Source: Streptomyces canus
GTDB lineage: Bacteria; Actinomycetota; Actinomycetes; Streptomycetales; Streptomycetaceae
NCBI RefSeq assembly: GCF_030816965.1
Contig: NZ_JAUSYQ010000002.1
Span: 9,290,001 to 9,354,000, forward strand
Length of the DNA stretch: 64,000 nucleotides
Direction: 5' to 3'
The position numbers and the translations under genes were made by a program. Within the stretch, counting starts at the first letter, position 1. Each line of letters begins with the position of its first letter. Below the pieces are notes generated by a model. It was not told the DNA's origin, did not search any database, and worked only from the letters and a program-made list of their open reading frames with translations. This document shows positions 1 to 17,641 of the stretch, one piece after another.

Positions 1-177
1 GCCGCCGCCAAGTCCCTGAAGAACGCGGTCAATTACACACCCGTGCTGTTCAGCGAGCAGATGAAGACGGCCCTGCGCAACGAGGTCGCGAAGGCGTTGC
101 AGGGCAAGGAGAGTCCCGAGGAAGCCCTCGACAACGCTGTCAAGGCCTGCGACACGCTGCTCCAGCAGCAGGGATAG
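1..177 (+). CDS. C-terminal end of a sugar ABC transporter solute-binding protein (partial)
   Basis: Only the last 58 residues lie in the window, in frame 1, ending at TAG 175-177. The helical, charged C-terminus with a late cysteine (KACDTLLQQQG) suits an extracellular family 1 sugar-binding lipoprotein. The call rests mainly on context: two MalF/MalG-type permeases follow at once, the first starting 2 bases after the stop. The protein would capture an oligosaccharide outside the membrane and hand it to these permeases. Family membership cannot be proved from this fragment. Confidence 0.7.
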   Translation, partial: AAAKSLKNAVNYTPVLFSEQMKTALRNEVAKALQGKESPEEALDNAVKACDTLLQQQG

Positions 178-179
178 CC

Positions 180-1118
180 ATGGCGTCGTCCACCGTCTCC
201 CGGGCCCGGCCCGACAGCCGTGCGCCCGACGTCCCGCGCGGGCGTCGGGTCAGGCGCCAGCTCCCGTCGAGCCCCTGGCTGTTCGCCGCACCCGGTCTGC
301 TGATCATCAGCGCGTTCATCCTGTACCCGTTCGTCTCCACGCTGGTGAACGCCTTCACCGACCGCCGCACCCTGATCCCGGGCGAGTTCGTGGGCCTCGC
401 GAACTTCCGTGAGCTGCTGCACGACGACATGTTCTGGATCGGCCTGCGCAACAGCTCGCTGTACGTCCTCGGAGTCGTGCCCGCGCTGGTGATCCTGCCG
501 CTGCTGCTGGCGCTGCTGGTGCAGAAGAACATTCCCGGCATCACCTTCTTCCGGTCCGCCTTCTACACCCCGGTCGTCGCCTCGATCGTCGTGGTCGGCC
601 TCATCTGGGTGTGGCTCCTCGACGAACGCGGCCTGATCAACTCGCTGTTGGAGGCCATCGGGGTCGGGCGGATCGGCTTCCTGAGCGACCAGTGGCTGCT
701 CCTGCTGAGCGCCATGGCCGTCACGGTGTGGAAGGGCCTCGGCTACTACATGATCATTTACCTGGCCGCACTGGCCAACGTGCCGCGTGAGCTGCACGAG
801 GCCGCGGCGGTGGACGGGGCCGGGGCGATCCGGCGGTTCGTCACGGTGACGGTGCCCGCCGTCCGTTCGACCATGGCACTCGTCGGGGCACTGTCCTCGG
901 TCGCCGCCTTCAAGGTGTTCTCCGAGGTCTACCTGATGGCCGGCCCGAGCGGGGGGCCGGCCGGTGAGGACACCACGCTCGTGATGCTCGTCCAGCGCAC
1001 CGGCACCGGACTGACGGGCCGCGTCGGCTACGCGTCCGCGATCTCGGTCGTCGTCTTCGTCGTCACCGTCGCGCTGATGCTGCTCGTGCTGCGGGCCGAC
1101 CGGAGGGGGGAGGCGTGA
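180..1118 (+). CDS. Sugar ABC transporter permease, MalF/UgpA type (CUT1)
   Basis: A 312-residue integral membrane protein. After a basic N-terminus of about 35 residues come six hydrophobic segments, roughly residues 38-60, 97-118, 123-147, 172-190, 238-258 and 283-307. The cytoplasmic EAA loop (ELHEAAAVDGAG, near residue 204) is where the ATPase docks. It pairs with the downstream permease, whose GTG start overlaps this stop by 4 bases. No ATPase gene is linked; Streptomyces CUT1 importers usually borrow the shared ATPase MsiK, so that is the expected partner. The neighbouring glycosidases suggest an N-glycan fragment as the substrate. Confidence 0.93.
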   Translation: MASSTVSRARPDSRAPDVPRGRRVRRQLPSSPWLFAAPGLLIISAFILYPFVSTLVNAFTDRRTLIPGEFVGLANFRELLHDDMFWIGLRNSSLYVLGVVPALVILPLLLALLVQKNIPGITFFRSAFYTPVVASIVVVGLIWVWLLDERGLINSLLEAIGVGRIGFLSDQWLLLLSAMAVTVWKGLGYYMIIYLAALANVPRELHEAAAVDGAGAIRRFVTVTVPAVRSTMALVGALSSVAAFKVFSEVYLMAGPSGGPAGEDTTLVMLVQRTGTGLTGRVGYASAISVVVFVVTVALMLLVLRADRRGEA

Positions 1119-1945
1119 CCCGGGTACGCAAGGGCGAACTGGTGCTGCGGTACGTCCTGTTGCTCGCCGTCCTCGCCCTGACCGTCGGCCCCTTCCTCTG
1201 GCAGCTGTCGACCTCGCTCAAGGGCCCCACGGAGGACATCTACAGCTCGCCGCCGTCCTTCCTGCCCCGGAATCCGACCTTCCACAACTACGAGCGGGTC
1301 GCCGACACCATCCCCGTCTGGGACTACGCCTTCAACTCCCTGAAGGTCGCCACCGCCAACGTCGTGACCAACTGCGTCGGTTCGGCACTCGCCGGATACG
1401 CCCTGGCCCGGCTGCGCTACCGCGGCCGCCGCGCGGCCACCCTCGCGTTCGTCCTGGCGATGCTCGTGCCCGTGGAGGGCATCATCATCGCCCAGTTCAC
1501 CACCATGCGGGAGCTCGGCCTCAACAACACCCTGATCGGCGTGGTCCTGCCGGGCTGCATCGGCGCGATGAACGTCCTGCTGATGCGCAACGCCTTCCTG
1601 AACCTGCCGTACGAGATCGAGGAGGCGGCCTACGTCGACGGCGCCAACGTCTGGCAGCGGTTCCTGCGGATCGCGCTGCCGTCGGTGAAGGGGACCGTGG
1701 CCGTCGTCGCGATCTTCGCCTTCATGGGCGCCTGGGACGACTTCCTGTGGCCCCTGATCGTGCTGAGCGACCCGTCGAAGTTCACACTCACCATCGGCCT
1801 CAACTACCTGCACGGCACCTTCGCCAACGACGAACGGCTCGTCGCCGCGGGCACGGTCATCGCAGTGGCCCCGCTGATCGCCCTCTTCGCCGGCCTCCAG
1901 CGGTACTTCTTCCGCGGGGTGGGCGAGGGGGCGGTGAAGGGCTGA
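1115..1945 (+). CDS. Sugar ABC transporter permease, MalG/UgpE type (CUT1)
   Basis: A 276-residue permease and second half of the membrane channel. It starts at GTG 1115 inside the stop of the previous gene (GTGA overlap), so the two are probably translationally coupled. Six membrane spans are visible, and the EAA loop reads EIEEAAYVDGAN near residue 167, a strong MalG-type feature. A glycosidase gene follows after 33 bases, so uptake and intracellular trimming are probably co-expressed. Substrate inferred from context: a mannose/GlcNAc oligosaccharide from N-glycans. Confidence 0.93.
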   Translation: MTRVRKGELVLRYVLLLAVLALTVGPFLWQLSTSLKGPTEDIYSSPPSFLPRNPTFHNYERVADTIPVWDYAFNSLKVATANVVTNCVGSALAGYALARLRYRGRRAATLAFVLAMLVPVEGIIIAQFTTMRELGLNNTLIGVVLPGCIGAMNVLLMRNAFLNLPYEIEEAAYVDGANVWQRFLRIALPSVKGTVAVVAIFAFMGAWDDFLWPLIVLSDPSKFTLTIGLNYLHGTFANDERLVAAGTVIAVAPLIALFAGLQRYFFRGVGEGAVKG

Positions 1946-1978
1946 ACCCCCCCGCTTCGCGTCTGACAAGGACTCCGC

Positions 1979-3235
1979 ATGCCTGCTGCCGTGCGCTTCG
2001 GCGTCAACTACACCCCGAGCGTCGGATGGTTCCACCACTGGCTCGACTTCGACCTCGACCCCGTCCGCGCCGACCTCGACTCGATCGCCGCCCTGGGCCT
2101 GGACCACATCCGGGTCTTCCCGCTGTGGCCCTACTTCCAGCCGAACCGCACCCTGATCCGGGAGCGGGCCGTCTCGGATCTCGTGCGGCTCGTCGACGCC
2201 GCCGCCGAGCGCGGTCTCGACGTCAACGTCGACGGGCTGCAAGGTCACTTGAGCAGCTTCGACTTCCTGCCGGCCTGGACCCGGACCTGGCACCGGCGCA
2301 ATCTCTTCACCGACCCGGAGGTCGTCGAGGGCCAGGCCGCCTATCTGCGCACGCTGGCGGCGGCGCTGGCGGACCGCCCCAACTTCATCGGCATGACCCT
2401 CGGCAACGAGGTCAACCAGTTCTCGGCGGGGCCGCATCCCGACCCCGACCGGGCCACGTCCGAGCAGATCGACGCCTGGCTCACCCGCATGCTCGCCGCC
2501 TGCGAGGAAGGGGCCCCCGGCCGACTGCACCTGCACGCCGAGTACGACGCCACCTGGTACCAGGACGACCAGCCCTTCACCCCCGTCCAGGCCGCCCGCC
2601 ACGGTGCCGTCACCGCCGTGCACTCCTGGGTCTTCAACGGCACCGCCCAGCGCCACGGCCGCACCTCCGTCCCGGCCGAGCACCACGCCGCTTACCTCGT
2701 GGAGCTCAGCAAGGCCTGGGCCGAGGACCCGCACCGGCCCGTCTGGCTCCAGGAGGTCGGCGCCCCCGCCCCGCTGGTGCCGCCCGAGCACGCCGCCGCC
2801 TTCACCGAGGCGACCGTGGCGAACGCCCTGGACTGCCCCGACCTGTGGGGCATCACCTGGTGGTGTTCCCACGACGTGTCCCGGGAGCTCGCCGACTTCC
2901 CGGAACTGGAGTACGGGCTCGGCCTGTTGACCAACGACCGGAAGCCGAAGGAGGCGGCCCGGGCGCTGGAGCGGGCGGCGCGTACGGGCTCGCACGCGCC
3001 TGAACGCCGTACGACCGCACTGGTCGTTCCCTCCGACCCCGCCTGCCGTGCGCTCTGCGCGCCCGGTGGCCCGGTCTTCGACGCCTACTTCCGGCTGGTC
3101 GCCGACGGCGCCCGCCCCACCACCGTCCTCGACACCCGTGCCGCCGACCAGGACCATCTGTCCGCGCGCGGCATCACCGAGGTCGTCACATCCGATCAGG
3201 TACTCCCACCGTTCCTGGGGACTGAGCAGGAGTGA
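1979..3235 (+). CDS. GH5-type beta-mannosidase, probably subfamily GH5_18
   Basis: A 418-residue cytoplasmic glycosidase with no signal peptide. The N-terminus reads FGVNYTPSVGWFHHWLDFD and continues with RVFPLWPYFQPNRT. The clan GH-A acid/base lies in LGNEVNQ (Glu144) and the nucleophile in WLQEVGAP (Glu259). Length and these motifs match, from memory, the GH5_18 beta-mannosidases that split Man-beta-1,4-GlcNAc, the core disaccharide left when an endo-glycosidase and alpha-mannosidases have acted. The last 75 or so residues look like a small alpha/beta accessory domain. An AAGGA ribosome site precedes the ATG. The GH85 and GH38 neighbours support the role; subfamily assignment is inferred. 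Confidence 0.8.
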   Translation: MPAAVRFGVNYTPSVGWFHHWLDFDLDPVRADLDSIAALGLDHIRVFPLWPYFQPNRTLIRERAVSDLVRLVDAAAERGLDVNVDGLQGHLSSFDFLPAWTRTWHRRNLFTDPEVVEGQAAYLRTLAAALADRPNFIGMTLGNEVNQFSAGPHPDPDRATSEQIDAWLTRMLAACEEGAPGRLHLHAEYDATWYQDDQPFTPVQAARHGAVTAVHSWVFNGTAQRHGRTSVPAEHHAAYLVELSKAWAEDPHRPVWLQEVGAPAPLVPPEHAAAFTEATVANALDCPDLWGITWWCSHDVSRELADFPELEYGLGLLTNDRKPKEAARALERAARTGSHAPERRTTALVVPSDPACRALCAPGGPVFDAYFRLVADGARPTTVLDTRAADQDHLSARGITEVVTSDQVLPPFLGTEQE

Positions 3236-3263
3236 GCCCGTTCAGCCGCACGCCCCGAACGGT

Positions 3264-3309
3264 CTTGGGCGTTCCCCCACTGCCTCAAGGGCGTGGGAGG
3301 TGCCCCCAG
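3264..3309. repeat. Imperfect intergenic palindrome, Streptomyces type
   Basis: Arms 3264-3280 and 3293-3309 pair at about 11 of 17 positions around a 12-base loop. The core words TTCCCCCACTGCC and GTGGGAGGTGCCCCCA are, from memory, very common between Streptomyces genes. Confidence 0.55.
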
Positions 3310-3419
3310 GTCCCCGGCGTACTCGACCCCGGGGCGGCGACACGCATCCTGTGCGTGGTCCGGTCCCGGTGCTACGGCCAGAGGCGACGGGAGGCCCCTG
3401 ACCATCTCTCTGGTGGAGC

Positions 3420-3453
3420 GGGGGCCCCGCACTCCCCCAGAGGGGGTGCCCCC
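3420..3453. repeat. GC-rich hairpin, second intergenic palindrome
   Basis: GCACTCCCCC (3429-3438) faces GGGGGTGC (3442-3449) across the loop AGA, with one bulged T, and the stem can extend outwards through GGGG/CCCC. It shares the word GGTGCCCCCAGG with the first element, so the two look related. There is no T run, so a classical terminator is unlikely. Confidence 0.5.
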
Positions 3454-3620: not shown

Positions 3621-5612
3621 GTGAACCCCACCAGACGCACGGTTCTGCTCGCCGCGACCGCGGCGGCGCTGCTGCCCGCGCTGCCGGCGAAGGCAGCGGC
3701 GGCGACCACGCTCCAGCCGTACGCCACCTACTGGTACCCGGACTCCCTGCCCTCCGGCGGCCCCGGCACCGGCATCACCTGGCGCAGTCTCAAGGACTGG
3801 CGGGCGGTCGACGACGCCGACCTCGCCTTCAACGCGGCCTCCGTACCGCTCGCCGCCCGCTTCACCCCGACCCCCGCGAACACGACGGCACGCGCCGGGC
3901 AGGCCCGCATCCAGTCGCTGGTCTCCTTCGGGCCCACCTCGGGCAACCCTTCGCAGGGCTCGGCGACGTCCGACTACTACGCCTTCGGGCACTGGGCCTA
4001 CGTCGACGAGCTGGTCTTCTGGGGCGGTTCGTCCGGCGAGGGACTGATCCTCGCGCCGAACGCGCCGATCGTGGACGCCGCCCACCGCCACGGCGTGCCC
4101 GTGCTCGGCAACGTCTTCCTGCCGCCCGTCGCCTACGGCGGGCAGTTGCAGTGGACCCGGGACCTGGTGCAGAAGGACGCGGCCGGGCGGTATCCACTGG
4201 CGGCGCAACTCGTCGCGGTGGCCGCGGCCCACGGCTTCGACGGGTGGTTCGTCAACGCCGAGACCGGCGGAGGGGATGCGGCTCTCGGCGCGGACATGCT
4301 GGGATTCGTCCGGGAGCTGAAGTCGCTCGCCGCCGCTCGGGGGCAGCGGGTGACGTGGTACGACTCGATGACCGTGAACGGGACGGTGAGCTGGCAGGGT
4401 GCGCTGAACAGCCGCAACCAGGCGTTCTTCGAGGCCGCCGACGACATGTTCGTCGACTTCCGGTGGACGGCGGCCGCTCTGGCTTCCTCGGGCACCCTGG
4501 CGCAGCGACTGGGCCGTAGCCGCTACGAATTGTGGGCCGGGGTGGACGTGGAGGCGGGCGGTTGGAACACGTCCGAGAACTGGGACGCGATCGTGCCGGC
4601 CGGCAAGCCGCACATCACGTCGATCGGGCTGTACCGGCCGGAGTGGACCCGCAACCACCTGCCCGCCGACCAGCGGTCACCGGAGGACTTCCACGCGGCC
4701 GACGACCGCTTCTGGACGGGCCGGTCGCTCGATCCGTCCCGCCCCGACGGGACGGACGGCTGGCGCGCTCCGGCGGTGTCGGTCGCCGACCGGTCGACGG
4801 TCACCTCGCTGCCGTTCGCGAGCGTGTTCAACACCGGGCACGGCCTGCGGTGGTACGAGGAGGGTGCCGTCACGTCGGACGCGGCCTGGAACCACCTCGG
4901 GTTGCAGGACCGGCTGCCGTCGCGGCAGTGGGTGGTACGGACGGAGGGCTCCCGGCCGGCCGTCTCCTTCGACTTCGCGGACGCCTGGCGGGGCGGAAGC
5001 AGTGTGGTCGTGAGTGGCTCGGTTGATGAGCCGGTCACCGTGGATCTGTATGCCGCGCGGCTGCCGATCAGCCACGACACGGTGGTCGAGCTGACCCACC
5101 GGATGGACGCGGGTGCGGTGGGCGTCGAGCTGGCCGTGGCCACCGCCGAGCCGGGCGCGTCGGGGGCGACACCGCCGTACGTCCATCTTCCCGTGACCTC
5201 CGGCGACGGCTGGCACACCTCGACCGTACGGCTCACCGGGCTCTCCGGGACCGTCCACGCGCTCGGCGTGCGGCTCACCGGCAGCGGCTCGCTGACGTGG
5301 CGGCTCGGCGGTCTCGCGGTGTACGACACCCCCGGCACCCCCGCCGCACCTTCCGGCCTGCGGATCACCGCGGCCTCCGGCGGCGACCTGCGCCTCGCGT
5401 GGAACGCGGCTCCCGGCGCCGTACGCCACTACACCCTGCACCGGCTTTTGCCCGACGGCAGCCGGCGTTTTCTCGGCGGCACCTGTCAGCGGGCCTACTT
5501 CGTCGGCGGCCTCCGGCCCGAACAGGGCGAACGGCAGGCGCGGTTGGAGCTGCGTGCCGTGGGGGAGCTGTACACGTCGTCGGACCCCGTGACCGTGACC
5601 CACCCCTGGTAA
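3621..5612 (+). CDS. Secreted endo-beta-N-acetylglucosaminidase, GH85
   Basis: A 663-residue exported enzyme that cuts between the two core GlcNAc residues of N-glycans. The N-terminus has an arginine pair, a hydrophobic stretch and an Ala-rich cleavage region near residues 27-32, possibly a Tat-like signal. The GH85 core begins at about residue 40 (TYWYPDSLPSGGPGTG). The catalytic pair sits in GWFVNAETGG: Asn212 stabilises the oxazolinium intermediate and Glu214 is the acid/base, the family's N-x-E signature. Residues 430-570 look like beta-sandwich carbohydrate-binding domains and the tail (580-663) like fibronectin type III. Start GTG 3621 is set by AGGAGG just upstream. It would generate the oligosaccharide imported by the adjacent transporter. 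Confidence 0.92.
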   Translation: MNPTRRTVLLAATAAALLPALPAKAAAATTLQPYATYWYPDSLPSGGPGTGITWRSLKDWRAVDDADLAFNAASVPLAARFTPTPANTTARAGQARIQSLVSFGPTSGNPSQGSATSDYYAFGHWAYVDELVFWGGSSGEGLILAPNAPIVDAAHRHGVPVLGNVFLPPVAYGGQLQWTRDLVQKDAAGRYPLAAQLVAVAAAHGFDGWFVNAETGGGDAALGADMLGFVRELKSLAAARGQRVTWYDSMTVNGTVSWQGALNSRNQAFFEAADDMFVDFRWTAAALASSGTLAQRLGRSRYELWAGVDVEAGGWNTSENWDAIVPAGKPHITSIGLYRPEWTRNHLPADQRSPEDFHAADDRFWTGRSLDPSRPDGTDGWRAPAVSVADRSTVTSLPFASVFNTGHGLRWYEEGAVTSDAAWNHLGLQDRLPSRQWVVRTEGSRPAVSFDFADAWRGGSSVVVSGSVDEPVTVDLYAARLPISHDTVVELTHRMDAGAVGVELAVATAEPGASGATPPYVHLPVTSGDGWHTSTVRLTGLSGTVHALGVRLTGSGSLTWRLGGLAVYDTPGTPAAPSGLRITAASGGDLRLAWNAAPGAVRHYTLHRLLPDGSRRFLGGTCQRAYFVGGLRPEQGERQARLELRAVGELYTSSDPVTVTHPW

Positions 5613-5639
5613 CCCCCGGACCCTTGGAGAGCACCCCGC

Positions 5640-8600
5640 ATGCATGACGACCGCAGCCTGGTCGAAGCCCGCCTCAGGCGCGTCCTCGACGAGCGACTCC
5701 GCCCCGCCGTGTACCCCGAGTCCGTGCCGCTGGAAGTGGCGGTGTGGCACGCGCCCGACGAGCCGGTGCCCGTCGCCGAGGGCCTGGCGGCCGAGCCGGA
5801 GCCCATCGCCGTGGGCGCCCGCTGGGGTGCTCCCTGGGGCACCAGCTGGTTCCGCGGCACCGGAACCGTCCCCGAGGCGTGGGCCGGGAAGACCGTCGAG
5901 GCCCTCCTCGACCTCGGCTTCGACGAGAACATGCCCGGCTTCCAGTGCGAGGGCCTGGTCTACCGGCCCGACGGCACCCCGGTGAAGGGCCTCAACCCGC
6001 GCAACCAGTGGGTGCGGATCGGCGCTCCCGTCGAGGGTGGCGAGGAGGTGCGCCTGCACATCGAGGCCGCCTCCAACCCCGTCATCCTCGATTACCACCC
6101 CTTCCTGCCCACGCGGTTGGGCGACAAGGAGACCGCGGGCGGCGAACCGCAGTACCGGCTGGCACGTATGGACCTCGCCGTGCTCGACGAGACGGTGTGG
6201 CAGCTGGTGATCGACCTGGAGGTGCTCGGTGAGCTGATGGCCGAGCTGCCGGTGGAGTCGGCGCGGCGCTGGGAGATCCTGCGGGCGGTGGAGAAGGCGC
6301 TGGACGCGCTGGACCTCCAGGACGTGGGCGGCACGGCGGCGCAGGCCCGTTCGCGGCTGGACAGCGCCTTCGAGGCGCCCGCCGTCCCCTCCGCCCATCG
6401 CGTCAGCGCCGTGGGACACGCCCACATCGACTCGGCGTGGCTGTGGCCGCTGCGGGAGACCGTGCGCAAGGTCGCCCGGACGACATCCAACATGACCGCC
6501 CTCCTCGACGACGAGCCGGAGTTCGTGTTCGCCATGTCCCAGGCCCAGCAGTGGGCCTGGGTCCGCGACCACCGGCCCGAGGTGTGGGCGCGCGTGAAGA
6601 AGGCGGTGGCGGACGGGCGGTTCGTGCCGGCCGGCGGCATGTGGGTGGAGTCGGACACCAACATGCCGGGCTCGGAGGCGATGGCCCGTCAGTTCGTGCA
6701 CGGCAAACGGTTCTTCCTCGACGAGTTCGGCGTCGAGAACCAGGAGGCGTGGCTGCCCGACACGTTCGGCTTCGCGGCCGGACTGCCGCAGATCATCAAG
6801 GCGGCGGGCTCCAAGTGGCTGCTGACACAGAAGATCTCCTGGTCCCAGACCAACAAGTTCCCCCACCACACCTTCCAGTGGGAGGGCATCGACGGCACCC
6901 GGATCTTCACGCACTTTCCGCCCGTCGACACCTACAACTGCTCCATGAAGGGCAGCGAAATCGCCCACGCGGCACGGAACTTCAAGGACAAGGGGGTCGC
7001 CCGGCACTCCCTCGCCCCCACCGGCTGGGGCGACGGAGGCGGCGGTACGACCCGCGAGATGGTCGCCAAGGCGGCCCGCCTGCGCGACCTCGAAGGCTCG
7101 GCGACCGTGACGTGGGAGACCCCGGCGGAGTTCTTCGCGAAGGCCCAGGCCGAATACCCCGAACCGCCCGTCTGGGTCGGCGAGCTCTACCTCGAACTCC
7201 ACCGCGCGACCCTCACCAGCCAGGCGAAGACCAAGCAGGGCAACCGCCGCAGCGAACACCTCCTGCGCGAGGCGGAGCTGTGGGCGGCGACGGCGGCCGT
7301 ACGGGCCGGATCGCCCTACCCGTACGAGGAGTTGGACCGCATCTGGAAGACGGTGCTGCTCCACCAGTTCCATGACATCCTGCCGGGGTCGTCGATCGCC
7401 TGGGTGCACCGGGAGGCGCGGCGCACGTACGAGCGGCTCGCGGACGAGTTGAACGGCATCATCGACGCGGCCCAGCGCACCCTCGCGGGGGAGGGGACAC
7501 GGGAACTGCTCTTCAACCCCGCACCCCATGGCCGTGACGGAGTCGCCGCGGGCGGTGCCGGAATCGCGGTCGTCGAGGGGCGGACGACGGTGACCGAGCG
7601 GCCCGGCGGCGGGCACGTCCTGGACAACGGCATCCTGCGGGTCGAGGTCGACGCGCGCGGCCTGGCCGTCTCCGTGTACGACATCGAGGCCGACCGCGAG
7701 ACGATCGCACCGGGCCGTGCCGGCAACCTCCTCCAACTCCACCCGGACTTCCCGAACATGTGGGACGCGTGGGACGTGGACGAGTTCTACCGCAACACGG
7801 TCACGGATCTCACCGAGGTGGACGAGCTCGCCCCCGAGGGGCACGGTGTGCGGATCGTGCGGACCTTCGGCGGCTCCCGCGTCACCCAGGTGCTGTCCCT
7901 GGGGCCCGGTGAGCGGCGGCTTCTCGTGGACACGGAGGTCGACTGGCACGAGACGGAGAAGTTCCTGAAGCTCGCCTTCCCGCTCGACGTGCACGCCGAA
8001 CGGTACGCGTCGGAGACGCAGTTCGGGCACTTCCACCGGCCCACGCACACCAACACCTCGTGGGAGGCGGCGAAGTTCGAGGCCTGCAACCACCGCTTCG
8101 TGCACCTGGAGGAACCGGGCTGGGGCGTGGCGATCGTCAACGACTCGACGTACGGGCACGACGTGACCCGTACGGTCCGGGTCGACGGCGACCATGGCAC
8201 GACCACCACGGTCCGGGTGTCGCTGCTGCGGGCCCCGCGTTTCCCCGATCCCGAGACCGACCAGGGCGTCCACCGGTTCCGGCACGCGCTGGTGCCGGGG
8301 GCGGGCATCGGGGACGCGGTACGGGAGGGGTGGCGGATCAATCTGCCGGACCGGTCCGTGCGGGGTTCCCAGGAGGTCGCTCCCCTGGTGACCGTCGACC
8401 AGGAGGCGGTGGTGATCACAGCCGTCAAACTGGCCGACGACGGGAGCGGGGACGTGGTGGTCCGCTTCCACGAGGCACACGGCGGGCGGGCCCGGGCCAC
8501 CCTCACGGCGGGGTTCGAGGTCGCCGGGGTCACGGCGACGGATCTGCTGGAGCGCCCGTTGTCCGATGCCCCCTCGCTGCGGCGTGAGGGGAACGAGGTG

Positions 8601-8654: not shown

Positions 8655-8656
8655 GC

Positions 8657-9617: not shown

Positions 9618-9663
9618 GCCATTCCTCCACATCACCGGGGTGCGCCGCAGTCTAACCAGCAGG

Positions 9664-9676
9664 GTGGTCGGACCAC
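9664..9676. promoter_or_regulatory. Candidate FadR-type operator, site 1
   Basis: GTGGTCGGACCAC is a palindrome with 6-base arms around a single G. Its core TGGTC-N-GACCA is the operator form known for FadR-subfamily GntR proteins. It lies between the divergent regulator and importer genes, 131 bases before the binding-protein start. Confidence 0.65.
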
Positions 9677-9728
9677 TATGGCCGGAAGACGGGAAAACCT
9701 GCCGCCGGAGGGTATTGCAAGGGGTGAG

Positions 9729-9739
9729 TGGTCTGATAA
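9729..9739. promoter_or_regulatory. Candidate FadR-type operator, degenerate site 2
   Basis: TGGTCTGATAA keeps the full left half TGGTC and GA of the right half of site 1. It lies 69 bases before the importer start, where bound repressor could block the promoter. Confidence 0.35.
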
Positions 9740-9807
9740 GTATCGGGCATCTGCTCGAACACGCTCATGCTCGATCACGCTCGACACGCTCAATGAGGAG
9801 CCGCCAG

Positions 9808-10881
9808 ATGCCCGGCAGAACAGTGGGGAAGCGGAACAGGTTTCGCATCATCGGCGCGGTGGCCGCGGCCGCGAGCGCCTCGCTCGTGCTTGCCGCGTGC
9901 GGCAGCACCAAGGACACCGGCAGCGCCGGCGCCGAGGGAGGCGACGGGACCGGCAAGGTAGGCGTGATCCTGCCGCTGCTGACCTCGCCGTTCTGGCAGT
10001 CGTACAACGACTACGTGCCCAAGATGGCCAAGTCCGAGGGGGTGGACACGCTGAAGACGGTCAACTCCAACAGCGACCCCTCCCAGCAGATCACCGACAT
10101 CAACAACGAGCTCAACCAGGGCGTGAAGGGCCTGGTCGTCGCCCCGCTCGACAGCGCCGCCATCGAGGCCGGCCTCGACCAGGCCGAACGCAAGGGCGTC
10201 CCGGTCGTCGCGGTCGACGTGGCCCCCGACAAGGGCAAGGTCGCCATGGTCGTACGGGCGAACAACGTCTCGTACGGCGAGAAGGCCTGCCAGTACCTCG
10301 GGGAGCAGATCCCCTCCGGCAAGGTCGTGCAGATCATGGGCGACCTCGCCTCCGTCAACGGCCGCGACCGCTCCGAGGCCTTCCGGGCCTGCGTGAAGAA
10401 GAACTTCCCCAAGCTGAAGGTGTTGGAGATCCCCGCCAAGTGGGAGTCCGACGCGGCCGCCTCGCAGCTGGGCACCCTCCTGAACGCCAACCCCGACATC
10501 AAGGGCATCTACATGCAGGCCGGCGGCGTCTACCTCGCGCCGACCCTGCAGACCCTCAAGTCCAAGGGATTGCTGAAGAAGGCCGGGCAGGCGGGCCACA
10601 TCAGGATCGTCTCCAACGACGGCATCCCGCAGGAGTACGACGCCATCCGCAAGGGCGAGATCGACGCCACCGTCTCCCAGCCCGCCGACCTGTACGCCAA
10701 GTACGGCATGTACTACATCAAGGCGGCCATGGAAGGAAAGACCTTCAAGCCCGGCCCGACCGACCACGACTCCACGATCGTCAAGCTGTCCAGCGGCATC
10801 CTGGAGGACCAGCTGCCCGCGCCCCTGGTCACCAAGGACAACGTCGACGACCCCAAGCTGTGGGGCAACACGGTCAAATGA
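9808..10881 (+). CDS. Sugar ABC transporter substrate-binding lipoprotein, ribose/rhamnose-binding type (CUT2)
   Basis: A 357-residue lipoprotein. The signal peptide ends in the lipobox LVLAAC with Cys31 as lipid attachment site. The mature part is a type-I periplasmic-binding fold of about 320 residues: VGVILPLLTSPFWQSY opens the first lobe, and VKGLVVAPLDSAAIEAGL plus KGVPVVAVDV are typical of sugar-binding members. I chose ATG 9808 with GAGGAG 8 bases upstream; the frame stays open far upstream, but that part is only complementary to the regulator gene. It overlaps the ATPase start by 4 bases. Substrate inferred from the operon: probably L-fucose or a related 6-deoxysugar. Confidence 0.92.
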   Translation: MPGRTVGKRNRFRIIGAVAAAASASLVLAACGSTKDTGSAGAEGGDGTGKVGVILPLLTSPFWQSYNDYVPKMAKSEGVDTLKTVNSNSDPSQQITDINNELNQGVKGLVVAPLDSAAIEAGLDQAERKGVPVVAVDVAPDKGKVAMVVRANNVSYGEKACQYLGEQIPSGKVVQIMGDLASVNGRDRSEAFRACVKKNFPKLKVLEIPAKWESDAAASQLGTLLNANPDIKGIYMQAGGVYLAPTLQTLKSKGLLKKAGQAGHIRIVSNDGIPQEYDAIRKGEIDATVSQPADLYAKYGMYYIKAAMEGKTFKPGPTDHDSTIVKLSSGILEDQLPAPLVTKDNVDDPKLWGNTVK

Positions 10882-12371
10882 GCACCCCACTGGTTGAAGC
10901 CGAGGGGGTCGTCAAGCGGTACGGCCCCACGACCGCCCTCGCGGACGGCCGCCTCACCGTGCTGCCCGGCGAGTCCCACGCCCTCGTCGGGCGCAACGGG
11001 GCGGGCAAGTCCACCCTCGTCACGATCCTCACCGGCCTCCAGGCCCCCGACGAGGGCACCGTCCGCTTCGACGGCGAGCCCGCGCCCCCGCTCGCCGACC
11101 GGGACGCCTGGCGGAGCAAGGTCGCCTGCGTCTACCAGAAGCCCACCGTCGTACCCGAGTTGACGGTCGCCGAGAACCTCTTCATCAACCGGCAGCCGCT
11201 GCGCCGGGGGTTCATCAGCTGGCGCGGTCTGAAGAAGGAGGCCGCCGAACTCCTCGACACCTGGGACGTGCGCGTCGACCCGGAGTCGCGCACCGCCGAC
11301 CTCAAGGTCGAGGACCGCCAAATGGTGGAGATCGCACGGGCGTTGAGCTGCGGCGCCCGCTTCATCGTCCTCGACGAGCCGACCGCGCAGCTCGACAAGC
11401 GGGAGATCGAGCGGCTCTTCGGCAGGATGCGCGCGCTCCAGGACTCCGGTGTCACCTTCCTGTTCATCTCGCACCACCTCCAGGAGGTGTACGAGGTGTG
11501 CCAGACGGTGACGGTCCTCAGGGACGCCCGCTGGATCACCACGGCCCCGGTCGCCGACATGCCCCGGGCGGCCCTGGTCGAGGCCATGGCCGGCGAGACC
11601 GTCGCCGAGCAGGCGGGCCGGCTCAGGGAGGTCGAGAACACCGCGCCCGTCCTTCTCGACGTGCGCGGCCTCACCTCCGACGCCTACGAGGACGTCGACC
11701 TCACCGTGCGCCGCGGTGAGGTCGTCGGACTCGCCGGCATCAGCGGCAGCGGCAAGATCGAGCTCGCCGAGTCCTTCACGGGACTGCACACGCCGACCGG
11801 TGGAACAGCCCAACTGGGCGGCAGGCCACTGCCGTTCGGCGACGTACAGGCCAGTCTCAAGGCGGGCGTCGGCTTCGTGCCGCGCGACCGGCACGCACAG
11901 GGCCTGGTCTTCGGCATGACCATCGGCGACAACGCCACCCTCAGTGTCCTGGACCGGCTCGGCCGCTACGGCTTCGTCGGCACCGACCGCAAGCGCGGCT
12001 TCGCCGCCGAGCTGATCGACCGGCTCGACATCCACACCGAGGGCCCCGACCAGCCCGTCTCCGACCTCTCCGGCGGCAACGCGCAGAAGGTCGTCATGGC
12101 CCGCGCCCTCGCCTCCGACCCCCGCCTGCTGGTCCTCATCAACCCCACGGCGGGCGTCGACGTGAAGTCGAAGGAGTCCCTGCTCTCCCGCGTGGACACC
12201 GCCCGCGACGATGGCACCGCGGTTCTGGTCGTCTCCGACGAACTCGACGACCTGCGGCGCTGTGACCGCGTCCTCGTCCTCTTCCACGGCCGCGTGGTCG
12301 CCGAGCACCCGGCCGGCTGGCGCGACCGCGAGCTGATCGCCTCCATCGAAGGAGTGGACCACCATGGCTGA
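10878..12371 (+). CDS. Sugar ABC transporter ATP-binding protein, two nucleotide-binding domains (CUT2)
   Basis: A 497-residue RbsA/XylG-type ATPase with two fused domains. Domain 1 (about 1-240) has an intact Walker A (GRNGAGKST) and Walker B (FIVLDEPTAQLD) but a degenerate signature (VEDRQMVEIARAL). Domain 2 (about 255-497) has a good signature (DLSGGNAQK) but a Walker A ending GSGKIE and Asn in place of the catalytic Glu (LINPTAGVD). Of the two composite sites, one should hydrolyse ATP and the other only bind it. The ATG lies in the stop of the binding-protein gene, and the 3' end overlaps the permease by 8 bases. Confidence 0.94.
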   Translation: MSTPLVEAEGVVKRYGPTTALADGRLTVLPGESHALVGRNGAGKSTLVTILTGLQAPDEGTVRFDGEPAPPLADRDAWRSKVACVYQKPTVVPELTVAENLFINRQPLRRGFISWRGLKKEAAELLDTWDVRVDPESRTADLKVEDRQMVEIARALSCGARFIVLDEPTAQLDKREIERLFGRMRALQDSGVTFLFISHHLQEVYEVCQTVTVLRDARWITTAPVADMPRAALVEAMAGETVAEQAGRLREVENTAPVLLDVRGLTSDAYEDVDLTVRRGEVVGLAGISGSGKIELAESFTGLHTPTGGTAQLGGRPLPFGDVQASLKAGVGFVPRDRHAQGLVFGMTIGDNATLSVLDRLGRYGFVGTDRKRGFAAELIDRLDIHTEGPDQPVSDLSGGNAQKVVMARALASDPRLLVLINPTAGVDVKSKESLLSRVDTARDDGTAVLVVSDELDDLRRCDRVLVLFHGRVVAEHPAGWRDRELIASIEGVDHHG

Positions 12372-13389
12372 CACGCAGGCTCCGCCGGTGAAGCAGGTGA
12401 GCGTGCCCGAGGTACGGTCAGCGCGGGCTCTGCTGCTGCGCCGAGCTCGCGAACTCGCTCTCGTGCCGGCGCTGTTGTTGTTGCTCGTACTCGGTGCCGT
12501 ACTCAACGACTCCTTCTTCACCGAGGCCACCCTGATCTCCATCCTGACCTCATCCGCGGCGCTGGCGATGGTGGTGCTCGCCGAGTCGCTGGTGCTCATC
12601 ACCGGCAAGTTCGACCTGTCACTGGAGTCGATGGTCGGCATCGCGCCGGCGGTGGCGGCACTTCTGGTACTGCCGGCCGCACAGTCCGGCTGGGGCACGG
12701 AGCTCCCCGCTCCCGTCGCCCTGCTGGCCATCCCCCTCGTGGGCGCGGCCATCGGCGCCTTCAACGGCCTCCTTGTGGTGAAGGTGAAGCTCAACGCGTT
12801 CATCGTCACGCTTGCCATGCTGATCATCTTGCGTGGCCTCCTCGTAGGCGCCACGAAGGGCAAGACGTTGTTCGGCATGCCGGATTCGTTCTTCTCGCTG
12901 GCCACCACCACGTTCCTGCACATCCCCATGTCGGTCTGGCTCGCCGCCGCCGCTTTCGCCGTTGCCGGGCTGGTGCTCAAGTACCACCGTGTCGGGCGGT
13001 CGTTGTACGCGATCGGCGGCAATCTCGAAGCGGCCCGCGCCGCAGGCATCCGCGTCGACCGTGTCCGGCTGGGTGTCTACATCGTCGCCGGGGTTCTCGC
13101 CTCGATCGGTGGACTCATGTACACCGGCTACGTCGGCGCGATCGGCGCCAACCAGGGCCAGAACATGATCTTCACGGTGTTCGCCGCCGCTGTCATCGGA
13201 GGTATCAGTCTCGACGGCGGCCGCGGCACCATGTTCGGGGCCCTGACGGGCGTTCTTCTGCTGGGCGTGGTCAAGACCATGCTCACCATGGCCCAGGTGC
13301 CGCCCTCCTGGATCGACGCCATCTACGGCGGAATCATCCTGCTCGCACTCATGATCGCCCGAGTGACGACGGGCCGGGCCCAGGACTGA
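12364..13389 (+). CDS. Sugar ABC transporter permease, RbsC type (CUT2)
   Basis: A 341-residue permease with 8 to 10 hydrophobic segments, the first near residues 31-50. Family features include the loop [16 protein letters not shown] and the late segment [24 protein letters not shown] found in ribose-type permeases. The ATG is preceded by GGAG inside the end of the ATPase gene. A run of TTG leucine codons around 12474-12483 is unusual for this window. Partner of the preceding binding protein and ATPase; substrate probably the sugar degraded by the following five enzymes. Confidence 0.93.
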
Positions 13390-13427
13390 CCCCGCCCGCG
13401 TCCCCGTCACCTACCGAAAGGCACTCC

Positions 13428-14777
13428 GTGTCCCCGACCCCCGCCCGCATCACTGCGGTAGACACCTACGACATCCGCTTCCCCACCTCGCGCGAGCTCG
13501 ACGGCTCCGACGCGATGAACCCGGACCCCGACTACTCGGCGGCCTACGTCGTGCTGCGCACGGACGCCGCCGACGGGCACGAGGGGCACGGATTCACCTT
13601 CACCATCGGGCGGGGCAACGAGGTCCAGGTCGCCGCGATCGAGGCGCTGCGCGGGCATGTGGTCGGACGGTGGGTGGACGAACTGTGCGCGGACCCGGGG
13701 ACGTTGAACCGCGACCTGATCGGCGACAGCCAGTTGCGCTGGCTCGGACCCGAGAAGGGCGTGATGCACATGGCGATCGGCGCGGTCGTCAACGCCGTGT
13801 GGGACCTGGCCGCCAAACGCGCGGACAAGCCGCTGTGGCGGCTGCTGGCCGAGGGCGACCCCGAGTGGCTGGTCGGCCAGATCGACTTCCGCTACCTCAC
13901 GGACGCGCTCACCCCGCAGGAGGCCCTGGAGATCCTGCGGCGGGGGCGCGAGGGGGCCGAGGACCGGGTCGCCGAGCTCCTCGCCACCGGCTACCCCGCC
14001 TACACCACCTCCGCCGGCTGGCTCGGCTACGACGACGAGAAGCTCACCCGGCTCGCGGCCGAGGCCGTCGCCGACGGCTTCCGGCAGATCAAGCTCAAGG
14101 TCGGCGCGGATCTGGAGGACGACGTACGGCGCTGCCGTGTCGCCCGCCAGGTCGTCGGCGCCGACATCCGCATGGCGATCGACGCCAACCAGCGCTGGGA
14201 CGTCGACGAGGCGATCCGCTGGACCAAGGCCCTCGCCGAGTTCGACCCGTACTGGATCGAGGAGCCCACCAGCCCCGACGACATCCTCGGCCACGCGACG
14301 ATCCGCAAGGCCGTCGCCCCGGTCAAGGTCGCCACCGGCGAGCACGTCCAGAACCGGGTCGTCTTCAAGCAGCTGCTCCAGGCCGGCGCCCTCGACGTCG
14401 TCCAGATCGACGCGGCCCGCGTCGGCGGCGTCAACGAGAACCTCGCCATCCTGCTGCTCGCCGCCAAGTTCGGCGTGCCGGTCTGCCCGCACGCGGGCGG
14501 GGTCGGCCTGTGCGAACTCGTCCAGCACCTGTCGATGTTCGACTACGTGGCCGTCACCGGCACCACCGAGGACCGGGTCATCGAGTACGTCGACCATCTG
14601 CACGACCACTTCCTCGATCCCGTGGTGATCCGGGAAGGCCACTACACGGCACCCGTCGCGCCGGGCTTCTCGGCCGCCATGCGCCCCGAGTCCATTGCGC
14701 GGTACACGTTCCCCGGAGGCGCCTTCTGGGCAGAAGACCTCGCCGACGACACGCAGAAGAAGGGGCAGGCGGCATGA
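13428..14777 (+). CDS. L-fuconate dehydratase (enolase superfamily)
   Basis: A 449-residue mandelate-racemase-type dehydratase turning L-fuconate into 2-keto-3-deoxy-L-fuconate. The barrel carries the superfamily residues: lysines in IKLKVGAD, metal ligands in [19 protein letters not shown] and TGEH, and the base region CPHAGGVGL. The N-terminal [25 protein letters not shown] and the whole length match fuconate dehydratases and the human homologue ENOSF1 closely, which distinguishes it from rhamnonate or galactonate dehydratases. Start GTG 13428 has AAAGG upstream. It begins 38 bases after the importer and overlaps the next gene by 4 bases. Confidence 0.9.
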
Positions 14778-15529
14778 GTGACTTCGAGGGTCTCAAGGCC
14801 CTGGTGACCGGCGGCGCCTCCGGCATCGGCCGGGCCACCGCGGAACTCCTCGTCGCACGCGGCGCCCAGGTCGCCGTCCTCGACCTGGACCCGTCCTCGG
14901 TCGAGAAGCCGCTGCTCGCCTACCGCGCCGACGTCACCGACGACGCCTCCGTCCGCGAGGCCGTGGCCGCCGCCGTGGCCGAACTCGGCGGACTCGACGT
15001 CGTGGTCAACAACGCGGGCATCGGCGCCCAGGGCACCGTGGCGGACAACGACGACGACGAATGGCACCGCGTCCTCGACGTCAACGTCGTCGGCATGGTC
15101 CGCGTCGCCCGCGCCGCCCTGCCCCACCTGCGCGCGTCCGCGCACGCGGCGATCGTGAACACTTCCTCCATCGCGGCCACGGCGGGCCTTCCGCAGCGGG
15201 CGCTGTACAGCGCGACCAAGGGGGCGGTGTACTCCCTGACCCTCGCCATGGCCGCCGACCACGTCCGCGAGGGCATCCGCGTGAACTGCGTCAACCCCGG
15301 CACGGCGGACACCCCGTGGATCGGGCGGCTGCTCGCCAAGGCCCCCGACCCGGCGGCCGAACGAGCCGCCCTGGAGGCCCGCCAGCCCACCGGCCGGCTC
15401 GTCTCGGCGGACGAGGTCGCGGGCGCCATCGCCTACTTGGCCAGCCCGCTCTCCGGCGCGACCACCGGCACCTCTCTCGCCGTCGACGGCGGCATGCAGG
15501 GCCTGCGCCTGAGGCCGGTGGGCCAGTGA
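14774..15529 (+). CDS. SDR dehydrogenase, probable 2-keto-3-deoxy-L-fuconate dehydrogenase
   Basis: A 251-residue classical short-chain dehydrogenase. The NAD(P) motif is [10 protein letters not shown] near residue 13, NNAG follows about residue 79, and the catalytic set is Ser in NTSSIA with YSATK. The tail [12 protein letters not shown] is typical. Coupled by an ATGA overlap to fuconate dehydratase, it most likely oxidises 2-keto-3-deoxy-L-fuconate to the diketo acid, as in the known non-phosphorylating fucose route. It could instead be the first sugar dehydrogenase, with the aldo/keto reductase taking another step. No hydrolase or aldolase for the diketo product is seen here. Confidence 0.83.
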
Positions 15530-16494
15530 ACACCCTCGGCACGAGCGGTGTGCGGGTCAGCGGACTGGGCTTCGGCGCCGCCGTCATCGGCAACCTCTTC
15601 ACCGAGGTCAGCGACGAACAGGCGCACGAGGCGGTCACCGCCGCCTGGCAGCGCGGCATCCGCTACTTCGACACCGCCCCGCACTACGGTCTCGGACTGT
15701 CGGAACGCCGGCTGGGGGAGGCACTGCGCGAGCATCCGCGCGCGGAGTACACCCTCTCCACGAAGGTGGGCCGCCGCCTGGAGCCGTCCGGGGACGGCGG
15801 CGACGATCTCGCCGACGGCTTCGCGGTTCCCGCCACGCGGCGCCGCGTGTGGGACTTCAGCGCCGACGGCGTACGACGCACCCTCGAGTCGAGCCTCGAA
15901 CGGCTCGGCCTCGACCGCGTGGACGTCGTCTACCTCCACGATCCCGACGACCACGCCGAAGAGGCCTTCCGCGAGGGCTACCCGGCCCTGGAGAAGCTCC
16001 GCTCCGAGGGTGTCGTCGGGGCGATCGGCGCCGGCATGAACCAGGCCGGGATGCTGACCCGCTTCGTCCGCGAGACCGACGTCGACGTGGTGCTGTGCGC
16101 CGGCCGCTACACCCTGCTCGACCAGAGCGCGCTCGCCGAGCTGCTCCCCGCCGCCGTGGCACGGGGCGTCTCCGTGGTGATCGGCGGCGCCTTCAACTCC
16201 GGGCTGCTCGCTGATCCGAGGCCCGGAGCGACGTACAACTACGCGCAGGCCTCCGGGGACGTGCTGGACCGGGCCCTGCGCATGCGGGAGGCCGCCGAGC
16301 GGCACGGCATCAGTCTGCGTGCCGCCGCCCTCGCCTTCTGTGCCGCCCACCCGGCCGTCGCGAGCGTCCTGGTGGGTGCCCGCTCGGCGGCCGAAGTCCA
16401 GGATGCCGCCGACCAGTTCGCGACCCCGGTGCCCCCTGTCTTCTGGCAGGAACTGCGCGACACCGGTCTCCTGACCACCGAGGAGCCGTCATGA
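15526..16494 (+). CDS. Aldo/keto reductase, probable L-fucose (D-threo-aldose) 1-dehydrogenase
   Basis: A 322-residue TIM-barrel oxidoreductase. The catalytic tetrad is visible: Asp and Tyr in YFDTAPHYGLGLSERRLG, Lys in LSTKVGRRLEPS, His in VYLHDPDDH. The YFDTAPHYG..LSE form with KVGR is that of D-threo-aldose/L-fucose dehydrogenases, which oxidise the free pyranose to the 1,5-lactone. Start GTG 15526 lies inside the SDR stop (GTGA). It should supply the lactone for the lactonase at the end of the operon. Confidence 0.83.
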   Translation: MNTLGTSGVRVSGLGFGAAVIGNLFTEVSDEQAHEAVTAAWQRGIRYFDTAPHYGLGLSERRLGEALREHPRAEYTLSTKVGRRLEPSGDGGDDLADGFAVPATRRRVWDFSADGVRRTLESSLERLGLDRVDVVYLHDPDDHAEEAFREGYPALEKLRSEGVVGAIGAGMNQAGMLTRFVRETDVDVVLCAGRYTLLDQSALAELLPAAVARGVSVVIGGAFNSGLLADPRPGATYNYAQASGDVLDRALRMREAAERHGISLRAAALAFCAAHPAVASVLVGARSAAEVQDAADQFATPVPPVFWQELRDTGLLTTEEPS

Positions 16495-16805
16495 GAGTCG
16501 CCCTGCACACCAAGGTCCGCGCGGACCGCGTCGAGGAGTACGAGGCCGCGCACCGCGAGGTCCCCGTCGAACTCACCGACGCGATCCGCGCCGCCGGGGC
16601 CCACTCCTGGACGATCTGGCGCAGCGGCACCGACCTCTTCCATGTCCTGGAGTGCGAGGACTACGGCCGCCTCCTCGCCGAGCTGGAGAAGCTCCCGGTG
16701 AACGTCACCTGGCAGGCCCGCATGGCCGAACTCCTCGACGTGGCGCACGACTACTCCGACGAGGGCGCCGACGCCGGCCTGCCCGTCGTGTGGGAGCTGC
16801 CATGA
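16491..16805 (+). CDS. Sugar mutarotase, RhaM family (L-rhamnose/L-fucose mutarotase)
   Basis: A 104-residue protein of the usual RhaM length. The HTKVRADRVEEYEAAHREVP start and the WTIWRSGTDLFHVLECEDY strand with paired aromatics and a histidine match the ferredoxin-like mutarotase fold. It speeds exchange between alpha and beta anomers, which helps a dehydrogenase that accepts one anomer. It overlaps both neighbours by 4 bases (ATGA). Rhamnose and fucose mutarotases of this fold are not separable by eye; the operon favours fucose. Confidence 0.87.
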   Translation: MRVALHTKVRADRVEEYEAAHREVPVELTDAIRAAGAHSWTIWRSGTDLFHVLECEDYGRLLAELEKLPVNVTWQARMAELLDVAHDYSDEGADAGLPVVWELP

Positions 16806-17641
16806 CGGTGGACGCGCACCACCATGTGTGGGACCTGTCGGTGCGGGACCAGGACTGGATCGGCTCGGACAGCCCGCTGCGACGGAACTTCACGATCGAG
16901 GACCTCGCCCCCGAGGCCCGCGCGGCAGGCGTCGAACGCACGGTCCTCGTCCAGACGATCACCGTGCCCGAGGAGACCCCGGAGTTCCTGGCCCTCGCGG
17001 CCCGCCACGACGTGATCGCGGGTGTCGTGGGCTGGACCGACCTGAGCCGTCCCGATACCGCCGACGAGTTGGCACGTCTGCGCGAACTCCCCGGCGGGAC
17101 CTTCCTCAAGGGCATCCGCCACCAGGTCCAGGGTGAGCCGGATCCCGAGTGGCTGCTGCGGCCGGACGTACGCCGAGGCCTGACCGCGGTAGCCGAAGCG
17201 GGTCTGGTGTACGACCTGGTCGTCCTGCCGCACCAACTGCCCGCCTGCGCCAAGGCGGCCGAGTCGCTGCCACACCTCACCTTCGTCCTCGACCACTTGG
17301 GCAAACCGCCCATCGCCTCCGGCGCCATGGAACCCTGGGCGGTCGGCGTCCGTGCCCTCGCCGCCCTGCCCAACACCGTCTGCAAACTCTCCGGCATGGT
17401 CACCGAGGCGGACCTCGGCTCCTGGACGATCGACGACCTGCGCCCGTACGCGGACACGGTCCTGGACGCCTTCGGCCCGGACCGTCTCATGTTCGGCTCA
17501 GACTGGCCGGTGTGCACACTGGGAGCGACATACGGGGAAGTGCTCGACGCCGCACGCCGGTTGACACCCGTGTCCGCACACCCCCAGGTCTTCGGGGCCA
17601 CGGCCACGCGCGTCTACGGACTCGGCGACTCCGGGACGTAA
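16802..17641 (+). CDS. Amidohydrolase, probable L-fucono-1,5-lactonase
   Basis: A 279-residue amidohydrolase_2 enzyme. The metal motif H-x-H is VDAHHHVWD at the N-terminus; GIRHQVQGEPDPEWLL, FVLDHLGKPP and the late aspartate in MFGSDWPVC are hallmark motifs of the sugar-lactonase group. It would open L-fuconolactone to L-fuconate, the dehydratase's substrate. Last gene of a five-gene run in which each start overlaps the previous stop by 4 bases (ATGA or GTGA). Its 3' end faces the LMF-type membrane gene, with 26 bases between the stops. Confidence 0.87.
   Translation: MTVDAHHHVWDLSVRDQDWIGSDSPLRRNFTIEDLAPEARAAGVERTVLVQTITVPEETPEFLALAARHDVIAGVVGWTDLSRPDTADELARLRELPGGTFLKGIRHQVQGEPDPEWLLRPDVRRGLTAVAEAGLVYDLVVLPHQLPACAKAAESLPHLTFVLDHLGKPPIASGAMEPWAVGVRALAALPNTVCKLSGMVTEADLGSWTIDDLRPYADTVLDAFGPDRLMFGSDWPVCTLGATYGEVLDAARRLTPVSAHPQVFGATATRVYGLGDSGT

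Follow-up and report, generated by a model that had tools for sequence, protein, structure and literature searches.

A Streptomyces canus locus with N-glycan genes, an L-fucose operon and a fucosidase/lacto-N-biosidase pair: a possible modular site of glycoprotein-glycan foraging

Introduction

In the genome of Streptomyces canus (10.66 Mb in two contigs), genes predicted to break down N-glycans stand next to an operon for the oxidation of L-fucose. Both lie at the start of a stretch of 64,000 nucleotides, referred to here as the window (assembly GCF_030816965.1, contig NZ_JAUSYQ010000002.1; G000:C2:9290001-9354000). Do the two halves form one foraging region, and which enzymes would set the fucose free? 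An earlier note on this DNA had raised the first possibility and had guessed that the fucosidase and hexosaminidase missing from the window lie upstream. The 20 kb before the window are included in a longer stretch, L009, and a window coordinate is the L009 coordinate minus 20000.

The answer favoured here, at a probability of roughly 0.6, is that the window shows part of a modular locus for foraging on the glycans of glycoproteins. This reading draws on gene content, domain families, conserved operator-like palindromes and a recurrent neighbourhood.

The enzymes upstream of the window

Seven genes of the genome match glycoside hydrolase (GH) family GH29 and none of them is in the window, which agrees with the earlier statement that it is without an alpha-fucosidase. 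Beyond 19 kb, Pfam was run on 37 of the 39 predicted genes (23432-24085 and 61891-62139 unscanned), and no fucosidase or hexosaminidase family was matched. A search for GH29, GH95, GH20 and GH92 genes in the preceding 20 kb had been proposed. It finds GH20 (L009:13895-15685) and GH29 (L009:15695-17227), both on the plus strand and 2.8-6.1 kb upstream of the window; GH92 and GH95 are absent among the open reading frames scanned, some frames being unscanned. The boundaries given for GH20 replace an initial, overlong open reading frame of 1105 amino acids. Both products carry signal peptides; throughout, signal peptides and lipobox-like ends were judged by eye from the N-termini. The guess about the missing enzymes therefore held for their place, within about 6 kb, but their kind was not as expected: an antennary instead of a core fucosidase, and a lacto-N-biosidase, are predicted.

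Compared with solved structures, the GH29 protein matches 4zrx (387 bits), 3mo4 (331 bits), 6org (272 bits) and AlfC (39 bits). 3mo4 is an alpha-1,3/4-fucosidase and the 272-bit match is SpGH29. The upstream enzyme resembles the alpha-1,3/4 type, GH29-B, and is far from core alpha-1,6-fucosidases, an identity that was ruled out by the ranking of structures in the PDB. According to an excerpt of PMC11189522, cluster-1 enzymes of GH29-B, one from a Streptomyces sp. included, favour alpha-1,3/4 linkages and Lewis epitopes.

The closest solved relatives of the GH20 protein are three lacto-N-biosidases (565, 412 and 385 bits), and the next is a beta-N-acetylhexosaminidase with 116 bits. In the excerpted text of PMC8004761, the galactose subsite (-2) of the lacto-N-biosidase LnbB comprises Gln190, Glu216, Asn259, His263, Asp467 and Leu574, and hexosaminidases are without it. 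Four of the five subsite residues that were mapped are identical in the S. canus protein; Q190 is replaced by Tyr157, as in 8hvb, and L574 is unmapped. Ten of 12 mapped active-site residues of LnbB are identical, and the two that differ (Q190 and Y427) match the closest lacto-N-biosidase, 8hvb. Judged by sequence, the protein is a lacto-N-biosidase, with predicted activity on type 1 chains; structure ranking and residue mapping ruled out an ordinary hexosaminidase. No Streptomyces lacto-N-biosidase was found by name in the open-licence literature searched. A GH112 phosphorylase, which bears on the fate of lacto-N-biose, was matched in 0 of 25 genomes, with the control likewise matched in none.

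The N-glycan half

The window opens inside an N-glycan locus. Its first 177 nucleotides are the 3' end of a gene for a CUT1-type solute-binding lipoprotein (1..177, plus strand), which starts 1.1 kb before the window at L009:18891. Two ATP-binding cassette (ABC) sugar permeases with BPD_transp_1 domains (180..1118 and 1115..1945) follow on the same strand, as do a GH5_18 exo-beta-1,4-mannosidase (1979..3235), a GH85 endo-beta-N-acetylglucosaminidase (3621..5612) and a GH38 alpha-mannosidase (5640..8654). The earlier note had named these five genes at this place, and domain and structure matches agree. The closest solved relative of the GH5_18 protein is ScGH5_18 (7lr7, 681 bits), and GH38 is recognised by Pfam with 318 bits; no signal peptide was seen on either. 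The signal peptide of GH85 (PF03644, 280.6 bits) contains a twin arginine, and the enzyme is predicted to release N-glycans from protein outside the cell. Among solved structures, 2vtf (347 bits) is closer to it than 2w91 (233 bits). 2vtf is Endo-A (PMC10154615) and 2w91 is Endo-D.

As in N-glycan loci of the GH38/GH5_18 type, GH5_18 adjoins GH38 and is accompanied by an ABC sugar importer. In the genome survey described below, the two genes lie within 25 kb of each other in 53 of the 57 genomes that hold both (counted rows). GH85 action leaves a single N-acetylglucosamine (GlcNAc) on the freed glycan, and GH5_18 is able to release that GlcNAc. Breakdown could therefore be finished in the cytoplasm by GH38 and GH5_18, and a hexosaminidase would be unnecessary after GH85. 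The gap that the earlier note wished to see explained is thus filled upstream, but no hexosaminidase was required at this step.

A second GH5_18 gene (53-55% identical) is found elsewhere in the genome (L016:6616-15876; G000:C2:7691616-7700876) with a gene for a BadF-type ATPase domain, two GH3 genes, and permease and binding-protein genes. This may be another N-glycan or beta-mannoside locus.

The fucose operon

The second half consists of eight plus-strand genes (9808-17641) behind a divergent GntR-type regulator on the minus strand (8916..9635). It has its own regulator and importer, as had been noted; the same orientation holds for the operon but not for the regulator. The genes are closely packed, with five four-base overlaps, one eight-base overlap and one 38-base gap at their seven joints. 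First come a CUT2-type monosaccharide-binding lipoprotein (9808..10881), an ATPase with two ABC_tran stretches (10878..12371) and a permease (12364..13389); both solute-binding proteins of the locus, CUT1-type and CUT2-type, have lipobox-like N-termini. The following L-fuconate dehydratase (13428..14777) matches 1yey with 692.7 bits, compared with 86 bits for an L-rhamnonate dehydratase. A short-chain dehydrogenase/reductase (SDR; 14774..15529) is a putative 2-keto-3-deoxy-L-fuconate dehydrogenase by context only, and an aldo-keto reductase (15526..16494), which among solved structures comes closest to L-galactose dehydrogenases (121 bits), is assigned as L-fucose dehydrogenase. The operon ends with a sugar mutarotase-like protein (16491..16805; TIGR02625 match below its cut-off) and an L-fucono-1,5-lactonase-like amidohydrolase (16802..17641; NF052480, 222 bits, below the cut-off of 400). 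L-fucose is the probable substrate.

The pathway had been called full. All eight genes are present, and the operon is without a hydrolase for the last step only: the FAH family, which would supply the 2,4-diketo-3-deoxyfuconate hydrolase step, has nine matches in the genome and none in the window. One of the nine (G000:C2:9956187) stands in a second fucose cluster, beside a second dehydratase 82% identical to the first. This hydrolase is nearest to L-2,4-diketo-3-deoxyrhamnonate hydrolase (247 bits) and has at least one homologue in all 42 class-A genomes (defined below); it may serve the pathway. The second cluster (L015:2732-14162; G000:C2:9950732-9962162) comprises a divergent CUT2 importer, FAH, dehydratase, SDR and aldo-keto reductase genes, and a GH29 gene whose product carries ricin-type lectin repeats.

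Recurrence of the neighbourhood

The same 150 genomes were searched with six proteins: the dehydratase, GH5_18, GH29, GH85, GH38 and GH20. Of the dehydratase rows, all 122 entered the link counts; 42 copies, one per genome, rank above the second paralogue of the source genome and form class A, and the other 80 form class B. The remaining rows counted were 90 for GH5_18 (two half-gene rows of G081 omitted), 30 of 43 for GH29 (13 weak partial rows omitted), all 54 for GH85, 31 of 58 for GH20 (those at 42% identity or below omitted) and, among the matches listed, 70 for GH38. For the last, nearly all rows below 72% identity were omitted, as were G020:C24 and G001:C235 (72-73%), neither of which shares a contig with a dehydratase. 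The identity cut-offs for a link were 67% for GH5_18, 59% for GH85, 72% for GH38, 70% for GH29 and 65% for GH20, and "none" means none above these.

At least one of the five glycosidase genes lies within 25 kb of the dehydratase in 35 of 42 class-A copies, compared with 4 of 80 in class B (Fisher p 3.5e-19, ignoring relatedness). Among the seven unlinked class-A copies, those of G013 and G084 are on short or split contigs, and five are in genomes without any of the five glycosidases above the cut-offs. The juxtaposition that the earlier note wished to see compared across genomes is recurrent: of the 26 genomes holding both classes, 22 have dehydratase and GH5_18 at most 25 kb apart, and the two invariably share a strand. 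In the four exceptions they are split over contigs (G078) or apart (G001, G019 and G108).

The upstream pair is tied to the fucose genes as well. Of the 25 genomes holding a strong GH20, 23 have a class-A dehydratase. Among the 26 strong GH29-B copies, 23 have a fucose dehydratase no more than 25 kb away; a contig break intervenes in G013 and G078, and only in G022 are the two genes genuinely distant. The gap between GH29-B and GH20 is at most 300 bp for 23 of these 26 copies. Loci from named strains were recovered by way of GH20 (best 80 of 175 relatives), with Streptomyces as carrier in 79 of 80 and scab names in four. Among the 71 that reach at least 4 kb downstream, GH29-B is found in 64 and an N-glycan or fucose gene in 63 within the stretch covered. 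The GH20 of one named strain, S. canus DSM 40017 (L089), is 96% identical to the one described here.

Some named loci hold further genes. Directly before the lacto-N-biosidase gene, 15 of 80 have an additional GH29-like gene (L096, L099, L105, L106, L108, L111 and others). In the loci mapped, it is about 31% identical to the GH29 of a GH4-GH38-GH29 row in the source genome (L017:6899-12613; G000:C2:8471899-8477613), which is a further mannosidase/fucosidase combination there. L141 and L146 combine GH20 with GntR, SDR and aldo-keto reductase genes, but no dehydratase or importer was matched within the stretch covered. In S. canus, a PA14-GH2 gene with a signal-like N-terminus (L009:3843-6461) has a beta-D-galactofuranosidase as its closest solved relative (576 bits); relatives occur in 19 of the 80 loci, beyond the amidase in 17 of those 19.

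Turnover at one chromosomal site

The locus has recurrent borders. On the right is a gene for lipase maturation factor, a bacterial LMF1 homologue (17668..19086, minus strand), and on the left, outside the window, an amidase gene (L009:12272-13615, minus strand). LMF1 borders the locus in 34 of 42 class-A genomes, the amidase in 27 and both in 23; the eight class-A loci without the LMF1 border extend less than 2 kb past the last fucose gene. Much of the association is thus common descent at one site.

Between these borders the content varies. In 13 of the 42 class-A genomes, the complete set of five glycosidase genes lies no further than 30 kb from the dehydratase. Reduced loci consist of GH29-B/GH20 and fucose genes only, without the N-glycan half (L018-L022), of GH38 and fucose genes (L028, L029) or of GH85 and fucose genes (L031, L032). 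Deviant layouts also occur, with GH29-B on the opposite strand beside GntR and without GH20 (G001, G020) or with GH29-B/GH20 beside a fucose operon of the FAH type (G007). When mapped onto a tree of 48 dehydratases, the label GH29-B/GH20 requires 14 changes, at least seven of them being forced by well supported branches; the pairing is therefore not one frozen inheritance. The fucosidase/biosidase pair is gained and lost repeatedly at one chromosomal site. Shuffled labels gave a mean of 16.4 changes, and 71 of 500 shuffles were as low as 14.

Of the 44 FAH-free loci, 36 have a CUT2 importer, and GH29-B accompanies it in 24 of these; the eight loci lacking the importer are all without GH29-B (p 7e-4, uncorrected; one of the eight, G096, is cut by a contig end). 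Loci of the FAH type are omitted from this tally (the second cluster of G000, G104, G007 and G047). The GH29 of G142 is a fragment outside the 26 strong copies, yet it counts as linked in the class-A link, tree-label and importer tallies; the G013 pair, on a contig of its own, is "none" in the tree labelling and "present", set by hand, in the importer tally.

It may be argued from these patterns that three independent catabolic modules share a permissive site between amidase and LMF1, and that their neighbourhood reflects site and descent instead of joint use. The recurrent borders, the module-by-module losses, the label turnover close to that of shuffled labels and the separate LacI and GntR operators (see below) would all fit. 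Such independence is nevertheless unlikely: the modules that could be named suit one substrate class, the layouts of G001, G020 and G007 likewise place a strong GH29-B copy next to a fucose operon, and the class-B dehydratases are almost never near these glycosidases.

The reduced loci bear on another possibility, namely that high-mannose glycans of fungi or plants are the only target of the N-glycan half, with GH29-B/GH20 and the fucose operon forming a separate Lewis-type unit. Loci L018-L022 contain just such a unit, GH85 is nearer to 2vtf than to 2w91, and the beta-galactofuranosidase-like GH2 gene is found further upstream; galactofuranose is fungal. The grouping of all five glycosidase genes around the dehydratase in 13 genomes speaks against a division of this kind, which is overall less likely than not.

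Regulation

Between the GntR gene and the fucose importer, the palindrome GTGGTCNGACCAC (9664..9676) is the probable GntR operator. It is conserved in most of 41 orthologous intergenic regions, where it is placed between GntR and the importer or dehydratase gene; a second conserved site, AGTGGTCTGATAAGTATC (9727..9744), precedes the importer gene. The N-glycan half has a LacI regulator of its own (L009:17660-18706, minus strand, outside the window). The stretch that separates LacI from the binding-protein gene likewise has a conserved palindrome, CTAATRCGCATTAG, with CTAAAGCGCATTAG among its variants; 23 regions show it. Each regulator would bind its adjoining palindrome.

Matrices were built from the 23 LacI and the 41 GntR regions, and 44 kb of the source genome were scanned. 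The LacI palindrome occurs only in the gap between LacI and the binding-protein gene, which also contains a weaker second copy 24 bases away; that of GntR is confined to the region ahead of the fucose importer. In 25 regions upstream of GH20, the random 95th percentile was exceeded in two by the GntR matrix and in three by the LacI matrix, and every one of these scores falls well short of true sites. A common regulon was dropped as an explanation, neither matrix having given true-like sites before GH20/GH29-B; no operator is shared by all units. With separate operators for LacI and GntR, and neither of them in front of GH20, the locus is probably organised as three control units in one place.

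A proposed route through the glycan

The genes suggest the following order of events. Outside the cell, GH29-B would strip alpha-1,3/4-linked (antennary) fucose, the lacto-N-biosidase-like GH20 would next remove galactose-beta-1,3-GlcNAc, and GH85 would cut the remaining mannose-rich glycan off the protein. This product, Man(n)GlcNAc (Man, mannose), may enter through the CUT1 importer and be split to mannose and GlcNAc in the cytoplasm by GH38 and GH5_18, under LacI. Free L-fucose would enter by its own CUT2 importer and be oxidised, under GntR, by dehydrogenase, lactonase, dehydratase and a second dehydrogenase, with final cleavage by an FAH-family hydrolase encoded elsewhere.

Together, GH29-B and GH20 would dismantle Lewis a, an antenna of plant complex N-glycans; alpha-1,4-fucosidase followed by lacto-N-biosidase would be a short route through it. 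A more specific reading, tentative and somewhat short of an even chance, is that the locus serves plant complex-type N-glycans with Lewis a, the antenna leaving as fucose and lacto-N-biose and the fucose being burnt by the adjoining operon. The same enzymes might instead serve animal-type glycans, that is, type 1 chains of mucin, milk or invertebrate glycoproteins. Users of milk and mucin have provided the best-described GH29-B enzymes and lacto-N-biosidases, and the commercial enzymes of Streptomyces sp. 142 are applied to human glycans (PMC8091460). The carriers named above, nearly all Streptomyces and four with scab names, argue the other way, as does the lack of a sialidase match among the genes scanned at the locus, and an animal source is distinctly unlikely. 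It would nonetheless be compatible with a foraging locus, a proposal that is independent of the source of the glycan.

Several points weigh against a foraging locus or against its plant substrate. The earlier idea of one foraging region holds for shared place (22 of 26 genomes) but not for shared control, each palindrome being confined to its own unit and the sites before GH20 being weak. Coupling is not tight: of the 70 genomes with this GH5_18, 44 lack the class-A fucose genes and 26 have them, the presence of one being only weakly linked to that of the other (p 0.03, uncorrected), and five class-A genomes have none of the glycosidases above the cut-offs. Common descent accounts for much of the linkage, whose p value ignores relatedness, and shuffling the GH29-B/GH20 label yields only slightly more changes than the real one needs. 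In some genomes unannotated inserts split the modules (about 9 kb in G010, L039). The importer contrast includes the truncated locus of G096, and outside the 44-locus tally GH29-B occurs without an importer in G007 and two named strains (L142, L144). The operon contains no FAH hydrolase. With regard to plant complex glycans, the closeness of GH85 to 2vtf is a limit, and according to a review no GH18 or GH85 enzyme had been described as active on plant N-glycans.

Relation to known systems

Actinobacterial N-glycan loci of the GH38/GH5_18 kind are reportedly the subject of Higgins 2021. The kind is already known, and the present locus departs from it in the fucose operon and the fucosidase/lacto-N-biosidase pair. 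This extension was not found in the open-licence literature searched, and the Higgins 2021 loci may show part of it. The Cutibacterium acnes locus, in an excerpt of PMC6160142, has the same side-by-side GH38 and GH5_18 without signal peptides and with importer and regulator nearby; its GH29 lies apart, whereas here the fucose-oxidation operon and the GH29-B/lacto-N-biosidase pair flank the mannosidase genes.

In gut Bacteroides growing on plant N-glycans, according to an excerpt of PMC9522356, a GH29 enzyme likewise first takes the antennary alpha-1,4-fucose; what is left of Lewis a is then removed by a GH2 beta-1,3-galactosidase followed by a GH20 enzyme, with a PNGase in addition. In S. canus, unlike Bacteroides, a single lacto-N-biosidase step would take off the disaccharide, and release of the glycan would fall to GH85. 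If this is true, a lacto-N-biosidase step in plant N-glycan breakdown departs from the route of galactosidase and then hexosaminidase.

By sequence, the GH20 is of the same type as LnbB of Bifidobacterium bifidum, but the genomic setting of the GH20/GH29-B pair differs. Both activities, alpha-1,3/4-fucosidase and lacto-N-biosidase, were bought as products of one strain, Streptomyces sp. 142, for work on urinary glycans (PMC8091460, excerpt). The proposed route would give a concrete natural role to two enzymes known mainly as reagents of glycan analysis or from milk- and mucin-feeding gut bacteria. It proposes a way in which Streptomyces use plant glycoproteins and, if true, might account for the presence in soil bacteria of enzymes more familiar from the digestion of breast milk.

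The operon shares dehydratase, lactonase-like, mutarotase-like, aldo-keto reductase and SDR genes with the oxidative L-fucose pathway of Xanthomonas campestris; 1yey itself is named L-fuconate dehydratase. It differs from that pathway in its ABC importer, its GntR-type regulator and its lack of an FAH hydrolase.

Another gene row in the window

Further into the window (53783-57931), genes for a histidine-specific methyltransferase, a class-II glutamine amidotransferase, an FGE-sulfatase/DinB protein and a GCS2 protein stand in a row, which resembles the ergothioneine genes.

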